From NCBI GenBank assembly GCA_025056215.1, contig JANWWC010000002.1, positions 124,001 through 188,000 of the forward strand: DNA of 64,000 nucleotides, read 5' to 3'. The position numbers were made by a program, and so were the translations under genes. Shown here in pieces: positions 3,530-30,660 of this stretch (positions within the stretch are counted from its first letter, which is position 1; each line of letters opens with the position of its first letter). This stretch comes from Cytophagales bacterium (GTDB lineage Bacteria > Bacteroidota > Bacteroidia > Cytophagales > Flammeovirgaceae). The notes under the pieces were generated by a model. The model was not told the origin of the DNA, did no database searches, and worked only from the letters and a program-made list of their open reading frames with translations.

Positions 3530-4018
3530 ATGGAGTACTTAAATTTGTTTCGTAGTCTTTTTGAAGCTAAAGTGCGTTATCTAATTTGCGGGGGATTGGC
3601 GGTAAATGTCTATGGAATTCCGCGCATGACTGCAGATATCGACTTACTACTCGATTTTGAGGAAGAAAATATCCGACGTTTTGAAAAAGTAGTAGCTGAT
3701 TTGGCTTACAAATCGCTCATACCGCTTACACTTCAGGAATTGCTCGATGAATCCTATCGCATCAGCGTGATTAAAAACCGAAACCTAATTGCTTATTCCT
3801 ACTACAATACGCGCTCTAATTATATGAATCTCGATATCATGATTGATATGCCCTTTTCTTTCGAAGAAATGTGGAAAGTAAGAGAAATCAGGCGAACAGA
3901 AAAAATCGAGATTAATATTGTTTCGTTAGAGCATCTGATTGAAATGAAAAAGTACGCTAATCGCATACAAGATCAACAAGATATATCGTTACTTTCAAGG
4001 TTGAAAAATATTAGCTAA
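3530..4018 (+). CDS. nucleotidyltransferase-fold protein
   Basis: This 162-residue protein has the signature of the minimal nucleotidyltransferase superfamily. GG at 21-22 is followed by AVNVYGIPRMT and the paired acidic residues D36 and D38 (ADIDLLL), with a third acidic candidate at D102 or D106 (LDIMID). Such proteins transfer NMP groups or act in toxin-antitoxin and antibiotic-modifying pairs, but the substrate cannot be read here. The ATG at 3530 is chosen; an in-frame TTG at 3503 would add nine residues ahead of the family's usual beginning. No HEPN-type partner is recognisable, although a small gene of unknown function follows after 81 bases. Confidence 0.75.
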   Translation: MEYLNLFRSLFEAKVRYLICGGLAVNVYGIPRMTADIDLLLDFEEENIRRFEKVVADLAYKSLIPLTLQELLDESYRISVIKNRNLIAYSYYNTRSNYMNLDIMIDMPFSFEEMWKVREIRRTEKIEINIVSLEHLIEMKKYANRIQDQQDISLLSRLKNIS

Positions 4019-4099
4019 ATGCTTTCTAGTTCACAAAATGTTTACTTTGTACTCTTGCACGTTTTAAAACACATTTTATTTCTTTGAAGTATTAAAGCT

Positions 4100-4321
4100 A
4101 TGACTATGAACGCAATTCAACAGAAGTATTTTACCAACGAAAAACATCTCCAAGTTGGGTATTTTTTCACTGTAACAGACGAGCAGATGTTAGAGCATCG
4201 CAAACGCTCCATTAAAGACATTTTTATGTGGCTCGAATCAGCAAATAGCTTTATACACTCTATTCAAACCCCTGAAGAACGCCAAGACTCTATAAGAGCT
4301 AAAAATTTCGTTCATCGATAA
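4100..4321 (+). CDS. small hypothetical protein
   Basis: This 73-residue frame has a second ATG at codon 3. The product is soluble and charged, with no signal peptide or membrane segment; it reads as an extended start, an acidic middle (TDEQMLEHRKRS) and an aromatic-rich helix-like part (KDIFMWLESANSFI). I do not recognise a family. Support for a real gene is its codon usage, which resembles its neighbours, its position in an otherwise empty gap and a hairpin plus T-run right after it. It may form a unit with the upstream nucleotidyltransferase-fold gene. A spurious frame is possible. Confidence 0.5.
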   Translation: MTMNAIQQKYFTNEKHLQVGYFFTVTDEQMLEHRKRSIKDIFMWLESANSFIHSIQTPEERQDSIRAKNFVHR

Positions 4322-6622: not shown

Positions 6623-7918
6623 ATGCGTATTTCATATATGTTTCAAGAACCTGATGTAAAAAAATTTCTGCTGATTATTACAATATTGTTAATTCTAGAT
6701 TGGTACATTTTTCAGCTAGTAAGAACAGCCTTTCAATCGCGAAGTATCTCTTGGCAAAAGGTAATAAAAACAATTTACTGGGCAATTTCCATTTTAGTAA
6801 TTGGGCTCTTAATAAGTTTTGGAATTTTTCGAGAGTCTTACGCCAATGTGAGCACTCAATTTCGCCATTGGATAGCCACCTTTTTCTTTGGAATGTTCCT
6901 TACAAAAATTATCCTGCTGTTATTCACACTGTTCGACGATTTTGTTCGCTTAGTACAATGGACTATAGACTTATTTGCTAAATTTTGGCAAAACCCAACC
7001 AATTCCCATAAAAACAATATCTCTCGCTCTGAATTTTTAGCAAAAACAGGTGTTTGGGTAGCTTCTGCTCCCACTATTCTGATGGGATACGGAATCATCT
7101 CTGGAGCATATAACTATCAAGTCATTCGAAGAAAAATTTATCTTCCCAATCTGCCCAAATCTTTTCACGGTTTAAGGATTGCGCAAATTTCTGATATTCA
7201 TAGCGGTAGCTTTTTTAATAAGAGAGCAGTAGAGGGCGGTGTCGAAATGTTATTAGCTGAAAAGCCAGATGTTGTATTTTTTACTGGCGACTTGGTAAAC
7301 AATTTCGCTAAAGAAGTGGAAGAGTACATTCCTATTTTTGGTAAAATAAGTCCTAAAGTACCTTACGGCGTATACTCCGTTCTCGGAAATCATGACTACG
7401 GAAATTACGTATTTTGGAGTAACGCTGAAGCAAAACGTCAAAACCTAAAAGACTTGGAGGCAGCGCATTATCATATGGGCTGGAAATTGCTAAAAGATTC
7501 TCATGCTTATTTAGAAGAATCTAATGAGCGAATTGCAATTATTGGAGTTCAAAATTGGGGTGCTAAAGGGCATTTTCCTAAGTATGGAAATCTTTTTAAA
7601 GCTGTCAAAAACATTCGCGATGCATCTGTTAAATTACTCCTTTCTCATGATCCAAGCCATTGGGATGCACAAGTACGCCCTCTCTTTCCAGATATCGACA
7701 TTACTTTTTCAGGACATACGCATGGAATGCAATTCGGTATAGAAATTGGAGAGTTTCGTTGGAGCCCTGTAAAATACATATACCCCAAATGGGCTGATTT
7801 ATATCAGGAAAACAATCAATATCTGTACGTAAATCGCGGCTTCGGCTTTATCGGATTTCCTGGAAGAATAGGCATTCTTCCAGAAATCACTATCTTAGAA
7901 CTGGTAGCTGTTGCATAA
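6623..7918 (+). CDS. membrane-anchored calcineurin-like metallophosphoesterase
   Basis: The 431-residue protein has three N-terminal membrane segments at about 14-33, 46-69 and 83-105, and a further hydrophobic stretch near 142-160. A metallophosphoesterase domain then begins. Metal-binding motifs are D191xH193 (SDIHSG), GD223 (TGDLVN), GNHD (N256-D258), a later SHDPSHWD histidine and GHTHG. This architecture matches YkuE/YaeI-like phosphoesterases, which act on membrane-associated substrates in the periplasm. The substrate is unknown. ATG at 6623 is used; codon 6 (6638) is an alternative. The gene stands alone and converges on the carboxynorspermidine dehydrogenase gene. Confidence 0.88.
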   Translation: MRISYMFQEPDVKKFLLIITILLILDWYIFQLVRTAFQSRSISWQKVIKTIYWAISILVIGLLISFGIFRESYANVSTQFRHWIATFFFGMFLTKIILLLFTLFDDFVRLVQWTIDLFAKFWQNPTNSHKNNISRSEFLAKTGVWVASAPTILMGYGIISGAYNYQVIRRKIYLPNLPKSFHGLRIAQISDIHSGSFFNKRAVEGGVEMLLAEKPDVVFFTGDLVNNFAKEVEEYIPIFGKISPKVPYGVYSVLGNHDYGNYVFWSNAEAKRQNLKDLEAAHYHMGWKLLKDSHAYLEESNERIAIIGVQNWGAKGHFPKYGNLFKAVKNIRDASVKLLLSHDPSHWDAQVRPLFPDIDITFSGHTHGMQFGIEIGEFRWSPVKYIYPKWADLYQENNQYLYVNRGFGFIGFPGRIGILPEITILELVAVA

Positions 7919-7949
7919 AACCCCAACCTATAAGCGCTAACTTATCAAA

Positions 7950-9167
7950 TCAAACACTTGGATATTCGTGTGGAAGTTCTATGTCGTGAAGTTCGTGCCA
8001 AGGCAACCCTTGAAGAGGAAGTTGTTCCATAAACGGATCAGGGTCAAACTCCTCTACGTTGAACACACCTGCGCCGCTCCATTTTCCTGTAAGCACCATC
8101 ATAGCACCAATCATAGCAGGAACGCCTGTCGTATAAGAAACCGCCTGGGCTTTTACTTCTCGATAGCATTCGGCATGGTCGCAGTTGTTATAAATAAAAT
8201 AGGTTTTAATTTTTCCGTTCTTAATTCCTCGAATCTGGCAACCAATAGAAGTTTTTCCTGTATAGTTTTCGCCTAAGGTATCGGGTTGTGGTAAAACTGC
8301 CTTTAAAAATTCTAATGGAACAATTTCCATTCCTTTAAAGTTAATAGGCTTGATGCTTGTCATGCCTACATTTTCTAATACGCGGAGATGAGTAATGTAT
8401 TTTTCACTGAATGTCATCCAAAAGCGGGCGCGTTTAAGAGTAGGAAAATTTTTGACAAGCGATTCAAGTTCTTCATGGTACAACAAGTAAGATTCTTTAG
8501 GACCAATCTCAGGGTATTCAATCGGTTTATGGATTTCAAGAGGCTCTGTTTCTATCCATTTTCCATTCTCCCAATACCTTCCTTTTGCAGTAATTTCCCG
8601 TATGTTGATTTCTGGATTAAAATTTGTGGCAAATTCTTTGCCGTGATTACCTGCATTACAATCTACAATATCTAAATAATGAATTTCGTCAAAGTGATGA
8701 ATGGAAGCATACTTAGTAAATATACCTGTTACACCAGGGTCGAATCCACAGCCAAGAACAGCCATGATTCCTGCTTCTTTGTAACGATCGTGATAAGCCC
8801 ATTGCCATTTATATTCAAATTTGGCAACGTCGCGAGGCTCGTAGTTGGCTGTGTCTAAATAATGCACTTTGGTTTCCAAACAAGCGTCCATGATAGGCAA
8901 ATCTTGATATGGGAGTGCTACGTTGATGACAATCTTAGGTTGAAAACTCTTAATAAGACTTACCACTTCCGAAGCGTAATCAGCATCTACCTGCGCAGTT
9001 TGAATGGTTTTCCCGTGCATTTCTTGAATATCTTTAGCAATCTTATCGCATTTGCTTTTCGTGCGACTTGCTAGCATGATATCAGAAAAAACGTGAGGAT
9101 TCATTGCGCACTTATGGGCTACTACTGAACCCACCCCTCCAGCTCCAATAATTAGAACTTTGCTCAT
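7950..9167 (-). CDS. carboxynorspermidine dehydrogenase / saccharopine dehydrogenase family
   Basis: This 405-residue NAD(P)-dependent enzyme starts with a Rossmann loop, GAGGVGS (residues 8-14). The saccharopine-dehydrogenase-like catalytic part includes GCGFDPGVTGIF, KESYLLYHEE, and SYTTGVPAMIGAMM near the C-terminus. These are marks of carboxy(nor)spermidine dehydrogenase (CANSDH), which condenses aspartate semialdehyde with putrescine or diaminopropane in the alternative spermidine route of many Bacteroidota. The decarboxylase partner (nspC) is not in this window. Lysine-pathway saccharopine dehydrogenase is the main alternative. Confidence 0.87.
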   Translation of the reverse strand: MSKVLIIGAGGVGSVVAHKCAMNPHVFSDIMLASRTKSKCDKIAKDIQEMHGKTIQTAQVDADYASEVVSLIKSFQPKIVINVALPYQDLPIMDACLETKVHYLDTANYEPRDVAKFEYKWQWAYHDRYKEAGIMAVLGCGFDPGVTGIFTKYASIHHFDEIHYLDIVDCNAGNHGKEFATNFNPEINIREITAKGRYWENGKWIETEPLEIHKPIEYPEIGPKESYLLYHEELESLVKNFPTLKRARFWMTFSEKYITHLRVLENVGMTSIKPINFKGMEIVPLEFLKAVLPQPDTLGENYTGKTSIGCQIRGIKNGKIKTYFIYNNCDHAECYREVKAQAVSYTTGVPAMIGAMMVLTGKWSGAGVFNVEEFDPDPFMEQLPLQGLPWHELHDIELPHEYPSV

Positions 9168-25711: not shown

Positions 25712-26509
25712 ATGAATTTAGATTACGATTTTTTGCTTAAGTACTATCAGCAAGTTTCATCTTCTATCCATCGCGCTTCCATAGTACAAAAAGCAGTATT
25801 ACCTTCAAGCGAACAATTAAGCAAATGGTTGCAAGATGTAGTAGTTTTTTATTACCCTCGCGATGTTGTAAGCGGAGATTTCTATTGGTGGACGCGCATT
25901 GAAGACAAAGTTTTTATAGCAGTAGCCGACTGTGCAGGTCATGGAATTCCTGCTGCCTTAATGACGATGACAGTTTATCCCCTCATGCAAAAAATTGTCA
26001 ATGATGAGCATATCAATGCAATGGAAGTGCTCTACAGACTCAACCAAGCTGTTATTAGCTTACTTCATCAAACAAGTAAGGACGCGCTTTGCCAAGATAG
26101 CCTTGATATTGGATTAGTTCGCATTGATTTACAAACGCGCCAACTCCAGTTCTCAGGTGCTTATCGCCCGTTAATTATCATTAGAAATAACGAATTTATC
26201 GAATTTAAAGGAGATAAAGCCTCTATTGGAGGAGTAAATAAATATTTTGAGATTCGCCGAAGTTATGCACTCCATGAAATAGATATACAGCCCGACGATT
26301 ATTGTTATTTGTTTTCTGATGGCTTTTGCGACCAGTTCGGCGGTGAGAATAATAAAAAATACTCACAAAATAGATTAGTAGAGCTTTTTAAAAGAATTCA
26401 TGTCTTTACAGGAAAAACTCAAGAACAAATTTTGCTCGAAGAATTTCAAAAATGGAAAGGAAATAATGTACAAATTGATGATGTTACAGTAGTAGGATTC
26501 AAATTTTAG
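25712..26509 (+). CDS. SpoIIE-type PP2C phosphatase
   Basis: This 265-residue protein is a PPM/PP2C Ser/Thr phosphatase of the SpoIIE/RsbU kind. It has no N-terminal sensor domain beyond a short helical stretch. Metal-binding positions are D56 (SGDFYWW), D73 (VADCAGHG, with H77 and the GIPAALMT block), the LFSDGFCDQFGG motif and D256/D257 near the C-terminus (IDDVTVVGF). Such phosphatases usually dephosphorylate STAS-domain anti-anti-sigma proteins. The gene overlaps the convergent WG-repeat gene by four bases. A related phosphatase is at 40952. Confidence 0.88.
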   Translation: MNLDYDFLLKYYQQVSSSIHRASIVQKAVLPSSEQLSKWLQDVVVFYYPRDVVSGDFYWWTRIEDKVFIAVADCAGHGIPAALMTMTVYPLMQKIVNDEHINAMEVLYRLNQAVISLLHQTSKDALCQDSLDIGLVRIDLQTRQLQFSGAYRPLIIIRNNEFIEFKGDKASIGGVNKYFEIRRSYALHEIDIQPDDYCYLFSDGFCDQFGGENNKKYSQNRLVELFKRIHVFTGKTQEQILLEEFQKWKGNNVQIDDVTVVGFKF

Positions 26510-29157
26510 TTGTTACAGGCAAACAATTCGTAATCTTCTGCTTTAAGTACATCTTTTTTAACAACTTCTCCCGCTTCATTTACAAATAATACGACGTATA
26601 ATTCCGCTTTTTGGATATGACTTTCTGCAACATAAAAAGGACGCTTTAAGGAACCAATGTTGTAAATTTGAGAATAAGCTTCTGGCAAAATTCTATTTTT
26701 TTGATTGCTCAAAAGCCCATATCCGCTGCTCCGATAAGTAAGAATCACTTTCTCATTTTCATTTTCGCATAACAACTTGTAAGTATCAAAAGTTTCATCT
26801 AATAACAAAGCATATTTAAATGCATAGATTCTCCATTTTCCTTTATAAAAAACCAGTGCCGATGTATCGTTCCAAAATTGAATGTCATCAAATTCAAATG
26901 GTGTAAGGGCATTTCCTGAAATGCTTACAAAACCGTACTTTTCTTTTTTTGCAATCCAAATTGTATCCTGATAATGCCTTAACATTACATCATATTCGGG
27001 TTTAATCAATTTTTTGGAGGGAAGATGATATAACCCGAATTTTTGTGTAGCCAACAATACAAAAGTTTGATTGCGACTATCGTAAATAATTCCATCAAAT
27101 TGCAAAGGCAATAATTGCGTTTGTAGCCCGATAAGTCCTTTTTTCGATGCCTTGCTCACGCGAAATAAAGTATCTGAAATGCAATAAATCTCATCGTATT
27201 TAGGCTTAAGAATCATCTCTCCTCTTGAAGAAAGGAGCCCTTTTTTTCCATTTTTATCCTCTATAATTATAAAATATCGAGTTTGCTCCCCTATGTTGCG
27301 CAACGATTGAACTGTAAACCATTTATAAGAAGACAAATCTACCAAATTAGAATGTAAAAAATATCCCCACTTTTTATTTCCTTGAAAAAGCAGAAAAGCA
27401 TCTTCTCCCAGAAATACAACGCTATCATACAAACAAGAAACCACTATATCACCGTATTGTGAAACAATTCCCCATTTTTCGTTTTGTTGAATTGCACAAA
27501 CAGACGTTCCAGGTATAACAGCAGATAGGTTTTCGAGATAATTTCCATTTAAAAAATGTAAAGCATAATTAGATTGATTTTGAGCCACCCAACCAAAAGG
27601 AACTTCTTTAAGAGTTTCGTATAAGAAAACGCGCGTTTGGCCCTCAGGAGTTCGCGGAAAAAAATTAACTTCTTCAGCTTTAATAAAATCAAACAAATTG
27701 ACTTTCCCGTTTTGATAGACTTTTACGTGTGATTCACTTCCAAAACTCTCTACTGTATCATAAACATATAAAAGTTGTAAGTTTTTATTTTTAAGACCGT
27801 TCAACAACATGTGAGAATGCGCAATAGCCCATTTTTGTTTTTTGAGAATAATAGCGCCTTCTCTTTCAACTATAATTTTTTCTAATTCAAAAGGTACAAT
27901 CACGTCATTGAGATAGCCGATAATCCCCCACCTTCCTTGATACTGAGCTTGAATAATATGATTATCAATAAATTCTAATTTTTCATACTTACAATCAAGA
28001 AGCTCAAATCCTGCCTTATGAAGCAATCCGAATTTTCCATTTTTCATCACTTTGATTGCCTGGTTTCCAAAAGGATATACATCTTCAAACTGAGAACAAA
28101 CTAACTGCTTTCCCGCTTTGTTATAAATGCAAGTGCTATCGTTTCGAATTGCAATAATATAGTCAGTTTCTAAGGTACTGCACAAATAATCTTCTGAAAC
28201 AGCACTGAATATAGGAGAAATCCGTATATTACCTTGTTTATCTATAAATCCGAACCGCTCATTTTGAACAAAAGCAATGAAATCAACTGTATCGAGTTCA
28301 TACAATTGCTTGGCTTCCTGAAAAATAGGCGCATAAGGATATTTTTCTAAAAAAAATGCTTTGTTCTCAGTTAGATACCAAAGCCTCCACCAAGCATGCT
28401 CCGCATGTCTATTGTCAGGAAATTTCTCTAAAAACGAAGCTAAGGTTTCTTGCTGATTGTCTGCTGTAAACATGTAATAGAGTTTTGTTTCGGCTTCTGC
28501 TCTAAAAGGGCTATGAGGATATTGTTGAATAAATCTTTCATAATCGTCAATAGTTCCTTGCTGAGTTTCAAACTCATACAGCAGAGTCTCATAGCGCTGC
28601 TGGGCAAGAGGAGCCTGAATTGCATCAGGGTATTTTTCTAAGAACTTTTTATAAGCTACATGAGTATTTTCTTCTTGAGCTTTTGCAAAAGCAATACTAT
28701 CTCTCAAAAAAACAGCCCTTTGCCGTTGTCGAGCAGTTGGATAATCATGAATGAAATCTTGAAATGCAGATTCTGTGTGCTTTTCGAAAGCTTGTTGAAA
28801 TGCTAAACTATCTATTTTTTCTATTAGAGAAACAATTGTTTGAAGAGAAATTCCTTTTTTAGCGTACTTTCTTTGTTTTTTCACACCTATTCGACCGTGA
28901 GCAGAAAGGAGTTTTAAAGCAAAATGATGGGCTTTATCTACGTTGTATTCTCGATTTTTGGTTTGCAAATAATAAAGACTATACAAATGCAAAGCTGTAA
29001 GATGTGAAGAATCCTTCGCTAAGGTCTTTTCCAGAATTTTTTTTGTTTTCTGAAAAAAACCTTTTTGCCACATTTTTTGAAAATCTTTAAACGATTGCGC
29101 CGATAATACTTCAGCCATTAAGCATGCTCCTACGACTAAAACCCAATAAAGAGGCAT
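26506..29157 (-). CDS. exported WG-repeat protein with helical repeats
   Basis: The ATG at 29157 gives 883 residues with a signal peptide (PLYWVLVVGACLMAEVLSAQ). An ATG at 29274 would add 39 residues and run into the divergent gene, so it is rejected. The N-terminal quarter has helical repeats of the type YEDFIxxYPxxxxxxxA (KFLEKYPDAIQAPLAQQRY, RFIQQYPHSPFRAEAETK, FLEKFPDNRHAEHAWWR), resembling BamD/YbgF-like TPRs. The remaining part contains many WG repeats (for example FGFIDKQGNIRISPIF, KFGLLHKAGFELLDCKY, WGIVSQYGDIVVSCLYDS, KKGLLSSRGEMILKPKYDEI). WG repeats form surface beta-propeller-like modules. The specific ligand is unknown. Confidence 0.85.
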   Translation of the reverse strand: MPLYWVLVVGACLMAEVLSAQSFKDFQKMWQKGFFQKTKKILEKTLAKDSSHLTALHLYSLYYLQTKNREYNVDKAHHFALKLLSAHGRIGVKKQRKYAKKGISLQTIVSLIEKIDSLAFQQAFEKHTESAFQDFIHDYPTARQRQRAVFLRDSIAFAKAQEENTHVAYKKFLEKYPDAIQAPLAQQRYETLLYEFETQQGTIDDYERFIQQYPHSPFRAEAETKLYYMFTADNQQETLASFLEKFPDNRHAEHAWWRLWYLTENKAFFLEKYPYAPIFQEAKQLYELDTVDFIAFVQNERFGFIDKQGNIRISPIFSAVSEDYLCSTLETDYIIAIRNDSTCIYNKAGKQLVCSQFEDVYPFGNQAIKVMKNGKFGLLHKAGFELLDCKYEKLEFIDNHIIQAQYQGRWGIIGYLNDVIVPFELEKIIVEREGAIILKKQKWAIAHSHMLLNGLKNKNLQLLYVYDTVESFGSESHVKVYQNGKVNLFDFIKAEEVNFFPRTPEGQTRVFLYETLKEVPFGWVAQNQSNYALHFLNGNYLENLSAVIPGTSVCAIQQNEKWGIVSQYGDIVVSCLYDSVVFLGEDAFLLFQGNKKWGYFLHSNLVDLSSYKWFTVQSLRNIGEQTRYFIIIEDKNGKKGLLSSRGEMILKPKYDEIYCISDTLFRVSKASKKGLIGLQTQLLPLQFDGIIYDSRNQTFVLLATQKFGLYHLPSKKLIKPEYDVMLRHYQDTIWIAKKEKYGFVSISGNALTPFEFDDIQFWNDTSALVFYKGKWRIYAFKYALLLDETFDTYKLLCENENEKVILTYRSSGYGLLSNQKNRILPEAYSQIYNIGSLKRPFYVAESHIQKAELYVVLFVNEAGEVVKKDVLKAEDYELFACNN

Positions 29158-29265
29158 ATTTTCTAAAAAGATGCTTAACAAAAAAACAAAAATTTGTAGT
29201 TTCGGGCAAAAGAAGATGTATATTTCAAACCATAAATATAATGGAACTCTATTGAATTTCTTGAT

Positions 29266-30660
29266 ATGTGCCAAATTAACATAGCGGAAAAATTGCGAAA
29301 CTCAACGTTATTCAAATCTTTACCTGAAGAGCCTCTACAAGCTATTGCTCAAAAAGCCAAATGCAGGCAGTTTTTTCCAAACGAAATCATTGAGCTAGAA
29401 GGAAACCCAAGCAACAGCTTGTATATTATCGCTAATGGAATCGTAGCTGTAAAAAAAATTGTAAGCGCAGGCAAAGAACATTTGTTTGCCTATCTGATGC
29501 AAGGAAGTAGTTTCGGAGAAGTAGGTATTATTGAAAACCGTCCGCGCTCTGCTACTGTTCAAGCTGTAAGCGATGTAGATGTTATCGTGATTCAACGACA
29601 AGAGTTTATGGAAATTCTTCATCGCTTTCCTGTAGTAGCTATCGAACTAGCAAGAACTTTAGGAAATTATCTCACAGAAACAAACCGGCGCATTAGTCGC
29701 ATTAAAACACAAGCCAAAGTAATTTTGATAATCAATACTTCAGAAGGAGCAGGAGGCACTACATTAGGATGCTTGCTTTGCGAAACCCTTGCAGAAAAAA
29801 CCCACCACCCTACGGCTTACATCGAATATCCTACTACTCACCATATTACTGCCGACTTGCGCTTAAAAACGCGCGAAAAAAAATATCATCATCGCTCTGG
29901 ATTCGATATTATTCTACAAACAGAAGATTCCAACTTGCCCGATGCTGCTCGAACAACAATTATGCTCGACACTTTAATGAACGACTACCGCAATATTGTC
30001 GTAGCAGTGTATGCATCTTCGATAGACGACTCTTTAGCTATTTTATTAGAATATGCAAACTTAATTGTTTTGCTAGGAAAACCTACTATCGAAAATTGGG
30101 AAATTATTCAAAATCTCTATCAAAATGTTCGAAAGCGCATCCGACGAGAAGAAACAGGACTTTTCACGGTGCTAAATTGTGCAAAAAAAGAATCGTATGT
30201 AGCTGAACTAAAACACGAAGCGGATTTTTTTATTCCTTATCTATACGATTTTAGCCCTATTCATCTTTCCGAACAAGAAAATTATTTTGTGCCAGATCCT
30301 CTTAAAGATACTGTACATTCGCTTATCGAACGATTAGAAAGAAATCATCAAATAGGCATCTTCATTCCGACTACTATCAATACAACCGAACCTTTCGATA
30401 CATCTGTTTACGTACAACAAACACTCAATTTTTTAGCTTCTCGCTTTGGTGGAGCCACTTCACGACTCTCCGAAGGTGTCTGGAACAGCTCACAACAAGG
30501 GCTCGTGGGCGAACAAGTGCATTTTGTGTTCTCCTATACAACACAATCAGACTTAAGCCGATATATGGACGAAATCATTGAATTTGTACGTAAACTTAAA
30601 AAAGAACTCAACCAAGAAGCAATAGCTCTCGAAATAGACGACAAACTCACTATTATTTAA
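29266..30660 (+). CDS. cyclic-nucleotide-binding domain fused to a degenerate MinD/CpaE-like P-loop domain
   Basis: The 464-residue protein has a CRP-type cNMP-binding domain at about 15-135. Its phosphate cassette is intact: FGE (83-85) and RPRSAT (92-97). After a helical link comes a domain starting at about 150 (KVILIIN). At 159-166 it has SEGAGGTT, where ParA/MinD/CpaE proteins have KGGVGKTT. Both the signature and the Walker lysines are missing, so it probably does not hydrolyse ATP. A third region (about 365-464), with FGGATSRLSEGVW and QVHFVFSYT, looks like a small ferredoxin-like domain, possibly DUF3574-like. The role is unknown. It is divergent from the WG-repeat gene. Confidence 0.8.
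   Translation: MCQINIAEKLRNSTLFKSLPEEPLQAIAQKAKCRQFFPNEIIELEGNPSNSLYIIANGIVAVKKIVSAGKEHLFAYLMQGSSFGEVGIIENRPRSATVQAVSDVDVIVIQRQEFMEILHRFPVVAIELARTLGNYLTETNRRISRIKTQAKVILIINTSEGAGGTTLGCLLCETLAEKTHHPTAYIEYPTTHHITADLRLKTREKKYHHRSGFDIILQTEDSNLPDAARTTIMLDTLMNDYRNIVVAVYASSIDDSLAILLEYANLIVLLGKPTIENWEIIQNLYQNVRKRIRREETGLFTVLNCAKKESYVAELKHEADFFIPYLYDFSPIHLSEQENYFVPDPLKDTVHSLIERLERNHQIGIFIPTTINTTEPFDTSVYVQQTLNFLASRFGGATSRLSEGVWNSSQQGLVGEQVHFVFSYTTQSDLSRYMDEIIEFVRKLKKELNQEAIALEIDDKLTII

Follow-up and report, generated by a model that had tools for sequence, protein, structure and literature searches.

A cyclic-nucleotide-binding protein with a degenerate SIMIBI domain and a C-terminal domain of SAM-lyase-like fold in a Cytophagales bacterium

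The locus and the spread of the gene

The window, that is, the whole stretch of 64,000 nucleotides of a Cytophagales contig that was analysed, contains a real open reading frame with an ATG start codon, which encodes the protein P0001 (Table 1). Computation shows three parts in this protein: a cyclic-nucleotide-binding (CNB) domain, a SIMIBI pseudo-ATPase domain, and, at the C-terminus, a domain of the SAM-lyase fold in which most active-site positions are conserved. The CNB domain is the sole Pfam match above the cut-off; KH_11 (E 0.021) and DUF6848 (E 0.11) fell below it and were taken as chance. In the open literature library that we searched, no description of this architecture was found. 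A search for SAM lyases together with cyclic nucleotide-binding yielded no match beyond a reference list, searches for CNB domains with MinD and for DUF3574 gave unrelated matches only, and that for NTE with P-loop gave nothing.

Table 1. Features of the P0001 locus, in window coordinates
Feature	Position	Strand	Evidence or content
SpoIIE/PP2C-type phosphatase	25712-26509	+	PF07228, E 3.5e-22
WG-repeat ORF	26506-29274	-	PF14903, E 9.8e-20
Three-domain protein P0001, 464 aa	29266..30660	+	CNB sensor, SIMIBI pseudo-ATPase, SAM-lyase-like domain
CNB domain, residues 34-120, FGE...PRSAT cassette intact	29365..29625	+	PF00027, E 1.3e-19
Degenerate ParA/MinD-like (SIMIBI) domain, residues 146-357	29701..30336	+	Profile-profile match, E 2e-7, score 54.0
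P-loop remnant SEGAGGTT, residues 159-166, without lysine	29740..29763	+	Sequence and orthologue alignment
SAM-lyase-like / PII-superfamily domain, residues 358-464, beta-alpha-beta-beta-alpha-beta	30337..30657	+	Model, Foldseek, PHROG 3543
Glu416, position of the catalytic Glu69 of Svi3-3	30511..30513	+	Profile alignments; invariant 25/25
Gln450-Glu451, positions of Gln104-Glu105 of Svi3-3	30613..30618	+	Profile alignments; invariant 25/25
Probable secreted glycoside-hydrolase-like protein (by eye), 704 aa	30667-32781	+	

Matches to P0001 were observed in 25 of the 390 genomes sampled from the order, its own included; thus, there are 24 orthologues in 389 other genomes, and all 25 matches are full length, including the CNB domain. 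The gene is present as a single copy in every sampled genome of two other families (11/11 and 13/13), and in none of the 17 other genomes listed for the family to which the window belongs. The gene tree does not decide between loss in these 17 genomes and transfer, since the window row has no supported placement in it (end branch 1.41, no supported set).

An earlier note on this DNA described the divergent neighbour of the gene as a WG-repeat protein with a PP2C phosphatase on its far side, and both assignments are correct. As listed, the WG-repeat gene starts with TTG at 29274 and overlaps the P0001 gene by 9 bases. The likelier true start is the ATG at 29157, which leaves a divergent intergenic region of 108 bases and is favoured because a signal-like segment (recognized by eye) follows it; hence, the listed frame, beginning at the TTG, is probably too long.

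The further suggestion, that these neighbours form a signal pathway with P0001, finds no support, as they are not conserved. We compared neighbourhoods of 5 to 18 kb around 20 of the 24 other orthologues. A WG-repeat gene was found in none of them, and relatives of the PP2C gene were found in three, five or six genes away and never adjacent. No neighbour is common to all genera in the 20 neighbourhoods; synteny exists within a genus. Of 21 neighbourhoods, nine contain a NIF3-like cluster (named by eye), which often does not directly adjoin the gene. As no partner gene is common across genera, P0001 appears to unite receiver and output in a single, self-contained chain. In the window, the glycoside-hydrolase-like gene starts 7 bases past the P0001 stop codon and may be co-transcribed with it; no relative of its product was found in the 20 neighbourhoods.

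An intact sensor followed by a degenerate SIMIBI domain

The CNB domain scores 70.4 bits, the gathering cut-off of its Pfam model being 27.5. The FGE motif occupies residues 83-85, PRSAT is also in place, and residues F83, G84, E85, R94, S95 and A96 are identical in all 25 orthologues (the window protein included), so the cassette is intact, as had been noted from the sequence. In CNB domains, the glutamate and the arginine of this cassette bind the phosphate. Genes for class III cyclases (PF00211) were present in all 13 genomes tested, out of the 25 that carry the P0001 gene. Because E85 and R94 are retained throughout and a cyclase is encoded in each tested genome, a cyclic nucleotide is a plausible predicted ligand of the CNB domain.

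The second domain had been described as ParA/CpaE-like, with a P-loop from which both lysines are lost, and the orthologues agree with this description. None of the 25 has a lysine at position 159, the place of the signature lysine, or at position 164, the place of the lysine in GKT, and an intact KGGVGKT occurs in none; two orthologues (L052 and L053) have a lysine off by one, at position 160. As the loss is fixed in all 25 aligned sequences, it is, on this alignment, a family feature and not a sequencing error. Other P-loop residues are kept to a varying degree: G163 in 23 of 25 orthologues and T165 in 24, with asparagine at position 166 in seven. The column of the Walker B aspartate in the ParA alignment (247) contains A, T, N or V in all 25 sequences and never aspartate. 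The invariant E187 (25/25) aligns with the ParA aspartate that follows strand 2.

No Pfam or NCBIfam model matched the middle domain above its cut-off, and a PDB sequence search with its profiles yielded no match below E 0.5; the two rows obtained, at E 0.59 and 0.63, were regarded as chance. The assignment comes from profile-profile comparison by hhalign. Against 35 ParA/MinD/Mrp-type sequences the domain reached the score given in Table 1, the maximum being 20.2 for 18 control gene families of the neighbourhoods, among which is one that its sequence marks as a P-loop GTPase. The ten non-ParA sequences alone gave E 2e-4 and a score of 35.2. The ParA alignment alone gave E 0.0011 and a score of 30.7 with the P-loop in register, and the maximum over 30 column shuffles was 19.7. 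The match to a lone CpaE-like sequence was weak (E 0.015) and did not cover the P-loop, and the single-sequence AF2 model of the domain (pLDDT 40.8) was too poor for use. Since the lysines are lost in all 25 orthologues and the ParA/MinD profile score lies above the controls, the prediction of a SIMIBI pseudo-ATPase is well supported at the profile level.

CpaE is a published example of a SIMIBI fold that has lost a P-loop lysine: PMC8513845 gives KGGVGSS for Liberibacter crescens and arginine or histidine in place of the signature lysine in related species. We also observed a CpaE-like protein (L112, 733-1875, minus strand) with the P-loop AKGGDGCSC, in which the signature lysine is kept and the second lysine is lost.

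The C-terminal domain and its putative active site

The remaining part of the protein had been recognized as a third domain and left unassigned; the domain is there, and it can now be assigned. It is the best conserved part of P0001, with the mean column identity of 77% (25 rows), compared to 55% for the SIMIBI domain (22 of the 25 rows). A tblastn search with the window domain retrieved 22 plasmid records at E up to 1, of which 15 were at E <= 4e-11. The best match is in Planktothrix (39% identity, E 4e-18), further ones are in Priestia and other Bacillaceae, several of them annotated as DUF3574, and seven weak matches (Rhizobium, Phaeobacter) have E of 0.1-1. The C-terminal domain of one orthologue matches Bacillus phage vB_BcoS-136 (E 2e-8). 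Among viral protein families, PHROG 3543 matches the window domain with E 2.2e-9 and PHROG 31027 with E 1.8e-6; each matches all 25 members, listed up to E 2, the best value for PHROG 3543 being 1.4e-10. Viral scans with queries A7, A6 and a Priestia protein found no relatives.

For DUF3574 itself (PF12098), the window domain has no match at the gathering score, and 11 of the 25 members match weakly, at best with E 0.0092, a level reached by chance models too; hhalign of the domain to two DUF3574 proteins gave E 2e-4 and 6.6e-4. Within the phylum, a C-terminal profile built from close orthologues matched one of 395 genomes, namely its own, and a wider profile matched five of 395, four of them weakly (E 5e-6 to 9e-5). 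The one match from a search of genome contigs, L031 (pairwise E 6e-6, 35.8 bits), was judged to be chance, as the locus had been picked by an 8-residue pattern lying inside the match and its protein, of 1118 aa, is of another kind.

When PDB sequences were searched with a profile built from 11 diverse members, the four best matches (E 0.02-0.029) were the phage SAM lyase Svi3-3 (E 0.02), a second SAM lyase (9lqd) and two SAM-AMP lyases. With the 25 orthologues alone, the E-values to SAM lyases were 0.12-0.14, and with the viral alignment 0.15-0.51; the profile match to the T3 SAMase was weak (E 0.054). By themselves, the sequence E-values to SAM lyases fall short of significance and are no more than suggestive.

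The structure model, built with an alignment of 15 viral relatives, has pLDDT 90.9. When it was compared by Foldseek with 350,542 PDB chains, the top match was the phage SAM lyase 6zm9 (E 2.3e-7), and all nine chains at E <= 0.001 were SAM or SAM-AMP lyases. CutA, which belongs to the PII-like superfamily, is listed from E 0.0036, interspersed with peptidase-type chains that are unrelated and have lower TM-scores. In VIA, the model aligns with 6zm9 at Z 9.9 (3.1 A, 106 residues), tied by the designed ferredoxin-fold protein 4ney (Z 9.9, 86 residues), and hence the fold itself is common. Against viral models, Foldseek gave 24 matches at E <= 0.001, any named ones being uncharacterised, and SAM hydrolases named as such came further down, at rank 30 (E 0.0019) and rank 39 (E 0.007). 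The domain is very probably a member of the SAM-lyase/PII superfamily, where its modelled fold places it, with SAM-lyase activity as a putative function. What is new here is that the C-terminal domain has homologues among small proteins of plasmids and phages and a SAM-lyase-like fold.

Several annotations of phage genes touch on this group. The Priestia family member has a relative, from a Staphylococcus phage, which the depositors labelled 'SAM hydrolase', noting similarity to 7OCK; it is a kayvirus protein (L164, Staphylococcus phage vB_SAP01, 1492-1893; match to Priestia at E 2e-4). Most of the phage relatives listed (Staphylococcus, Lactobacillus) are annotated as hypothetical and not as SAM lyases. 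In phage vB_BcoS-136 (L125), the relative of the C-terminal domain, gp071 (3944-4309), lies approximately 3 kb from speH, gp076 (7311-8303), annotated as S-adenosylmethionine decarboxylase, so that the two genes may belong to a SAM-metabolism cluster. The gene at 102-560 in phage T3 (L163) is labelled 'SAM-dependent methyltransferase' in its record, probably a mislabel; by its place, we take it to be gene 0.3, the known SAMase.

Svi3-3 contacts its ligand through residues that include Ser50, Glu69 and Gln104, with Tyr58 and Glu105 also taking part, and activity falls 4500-fold in the mutant E69Q, fivefold in Y58F and threefold in E105Q (PMC7877911). In the SAM-AMP lyase, Glu71 and Gln108 alone among the ligand-contacting residues are structurally common to the SAM lyase (PMC12255297). 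By two alignments of sequence profiles, as distinct from superposed coordinates, the Svi3-3 residues Ser50 (placed in one of the two), Tyr58, Glu69, Gln104 and Glu105 correspond to T398, W406, E416, Q450 and E451 of P0001, each invariant in all 25 orthologues; thus, the position of Tyr58 is occupied by tryptophan throughout. The direct alignment to the SAM-AMP lyase has its glutamine in register and Glu71 off by one from E416.

The same positions are largely kept outside the orthologues. An alignment of 28 rows combined the domain of the window protein and those of four orthologues with 23 sequences from plasmids, phages or viral contigs. Q450 is present in all 28, T398 in 27, E416 in 26 and E451 in 24; position 406 is always aromatic (W, Y or F).

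Possible mechanisms and comparison with known systems

We propose, with a probability of about 0.55, that P0001 belongs to the SAM-lyase/PII superfamily and is regulated by a cyclic nucleotide, with a dead SIMIBI domain as the transducer. Under this scheme, cAMP (or cGMP) from the class III cyclase of the cell would bind the CNB domain, and the change would travel via the C-helix of this domain and the dead SIMIBI domain, acting as a rigid coupling or a dimerisation module. A site for a SAM-type ligand at the subunit interfaces of a putatively trimeric C-terminal domain would thereby be opened or closed, and this site would either cleave SAM (or a SAM-derived nucleotide) or sense it. That the C-terminal domain binds SAM or a related adenosine ligand seems fairly probable; that it cleaves SAM is a putative activity which we hold to be somewhat below an even chance. 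The earlier note had expected an output that is conformational rather than catalytic. The pseudo-ATPase part of that proposal stands, by the profile comparison; the purely conformational output is not supported, because the C-terminal domain groups with SAM lyases and the active-site positions are mostly kept. As most key SAM-lyase positions are retained, the output may be chemical after all. A tentative extension is that P0001 is a housekeeping cAMP-gated enzyme cleaving SAM or a SAM-derived nucleotide and thereby tying cyclic-nucleotide signalling to the methyl-donor pool; the cell would then have domesticated a counter-defence fold of phages and plasmids to serve a second-messenger receptor of its own as catalytic output.

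The best surviving alternative, still unlikely in our estimate, is an integrator of two ligands without catalysis, in which a PII/CutA-like C-terminal sensor would join the cyclic nucleotide with SAM or another nucleotide and report both conformationally to a partner. CutA proteins, which are PII-like, have the same fold in the structural comparisons above, PII and CutA are named as structures similar to Svi3-3 (PMC7877911), and the Tyr58 position has changed to tryptophan in the entire family. However, Glu69, whose loss nearly abolishes the activity of Svi3-3 (PMC7877911), has an invariant counterpart here, and a pure sensor would have no need to retain such a glutamate. The role of Glu69 is mainly to orient the substrate, so its retention could be explained by binding alone.

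It is considerably less probable that the protein is a scaffold whose dead SIMIBI domain signals by its shape and that the C-terminal domain merely oligomerises. The absence of both lysines and of the Walker B aspartate in all 25 orthologues is consistent with such a scaffold, and the literature describes dead nucleotide-sensor modules that act as scaffolds, such as BcsE (PMC7439463). Against it, the C-terminal domain is better conserved than the SIMIBI domain, ligand positions included. An equally improbable alternative, that the middle domain can bind ATP despite its lost lysines, with ATP driving dimerisation as one step of the cycle, could draw on the retained G163 and T165, on the CpaE and CpaE-like P-loops given above and on the pilus protein TadZ, which reportedly binds ATP without the lysines, but it is opposed by the joint lack of the signature lysine, the P-loop lysine and the Walker B aspartate and by the asparagines at position 166.

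If the proposed reading of a regulated SAM-lyase/PII-superfamily protein is true, P0001 would be a direct wire from a second messenger, through a cAMP-type receptor, to methyl-donor metabolism. It would also be a clear case of an ATPase domain retained solely as a coupling piece. The SAM lyases of the cited work are phage counter-defence or CRISPR accessory proteins (PMC7877911, PMC12255297); here, a gene found in every sampled genome of two families joins their fold to a cAMP-type receptor.

Among known systems, CpaE/TadZ proteins are similar to P0001 in having a SIMIBI domain with a P-loop lysine lost (PMC8513845, and L112 among our sequences). Unlike P0001, they carry the receiver-like N-terminal domain TadZ_N, which has no match in P0001 or in its genome; the missing TadZ_N rules out membership in this group.

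In bacterial NTE-type lysophospholipases (CNB, NTE_Ploop, patatin), a CNB domain is also followed by a degenerate P-loop-like domain, and the CNB parts match. Homology of the middle domain to NTE_Ploop was rejected, as the score of 14.6 should be compared with up to 18.6 in 30 shuffles; eight sequences from nine NTE loci were usable in this comparison. Neither NTE_Ploop nor patatin has a match in P0001, which rules it out as an NTE lysophospholipase, and NTE_Ploop has none in its genome. The NTE-type proteins (L078, L079, L113-L119) were found in 2 of 99 genomes of the phylum and in 7 of 194 genomes of the order. None of the eight sequences has GGxGKT in its P-loop-like domain; these proteins, too, place a CNB sensor next to such a domain.

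BcsE, a c-di-GMP sensor, likewise combines a sensor, here for a cyclic dinucleotide, with an NTPase-like domain, its N-terminal domain being predicted as RecA-like with a severely diverged Walker A (PMC7439463). It differs from P0001 in that this domain is predicted to be RecA-like and not SIMIBI and that c-di-GMP is bound by a GGDEF-like domain; the SAM-lyase-like domain is a feature of P0001 that the excerpted text of the same paper does not mention for BcsE.

The stand-alone plasmid and phage relatives (PHROG 3543) are homologous to the C-terminal domain over its whole length, with 31-39% identity in the clear matches. Unlike P0001, the annotated ones are approximately 100-160 aa long and hence have no room for a CNB or SIMIBI part. 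Finally, the C-terminal fold and the positions of the active-site Glu, Gln and Glu are shared with Svi3-3 (6zm9, 6znb), a phage protein (PMC7877911), and with the SAM-AMP lyase (9gab, 9gad), a CRISPR accessory protein (PMC12255297). In contrast to both, the P0001 domain is fused to a CNB sensor, is encoded by a single-copy gene and has tryptophan at the position of Tyr58.
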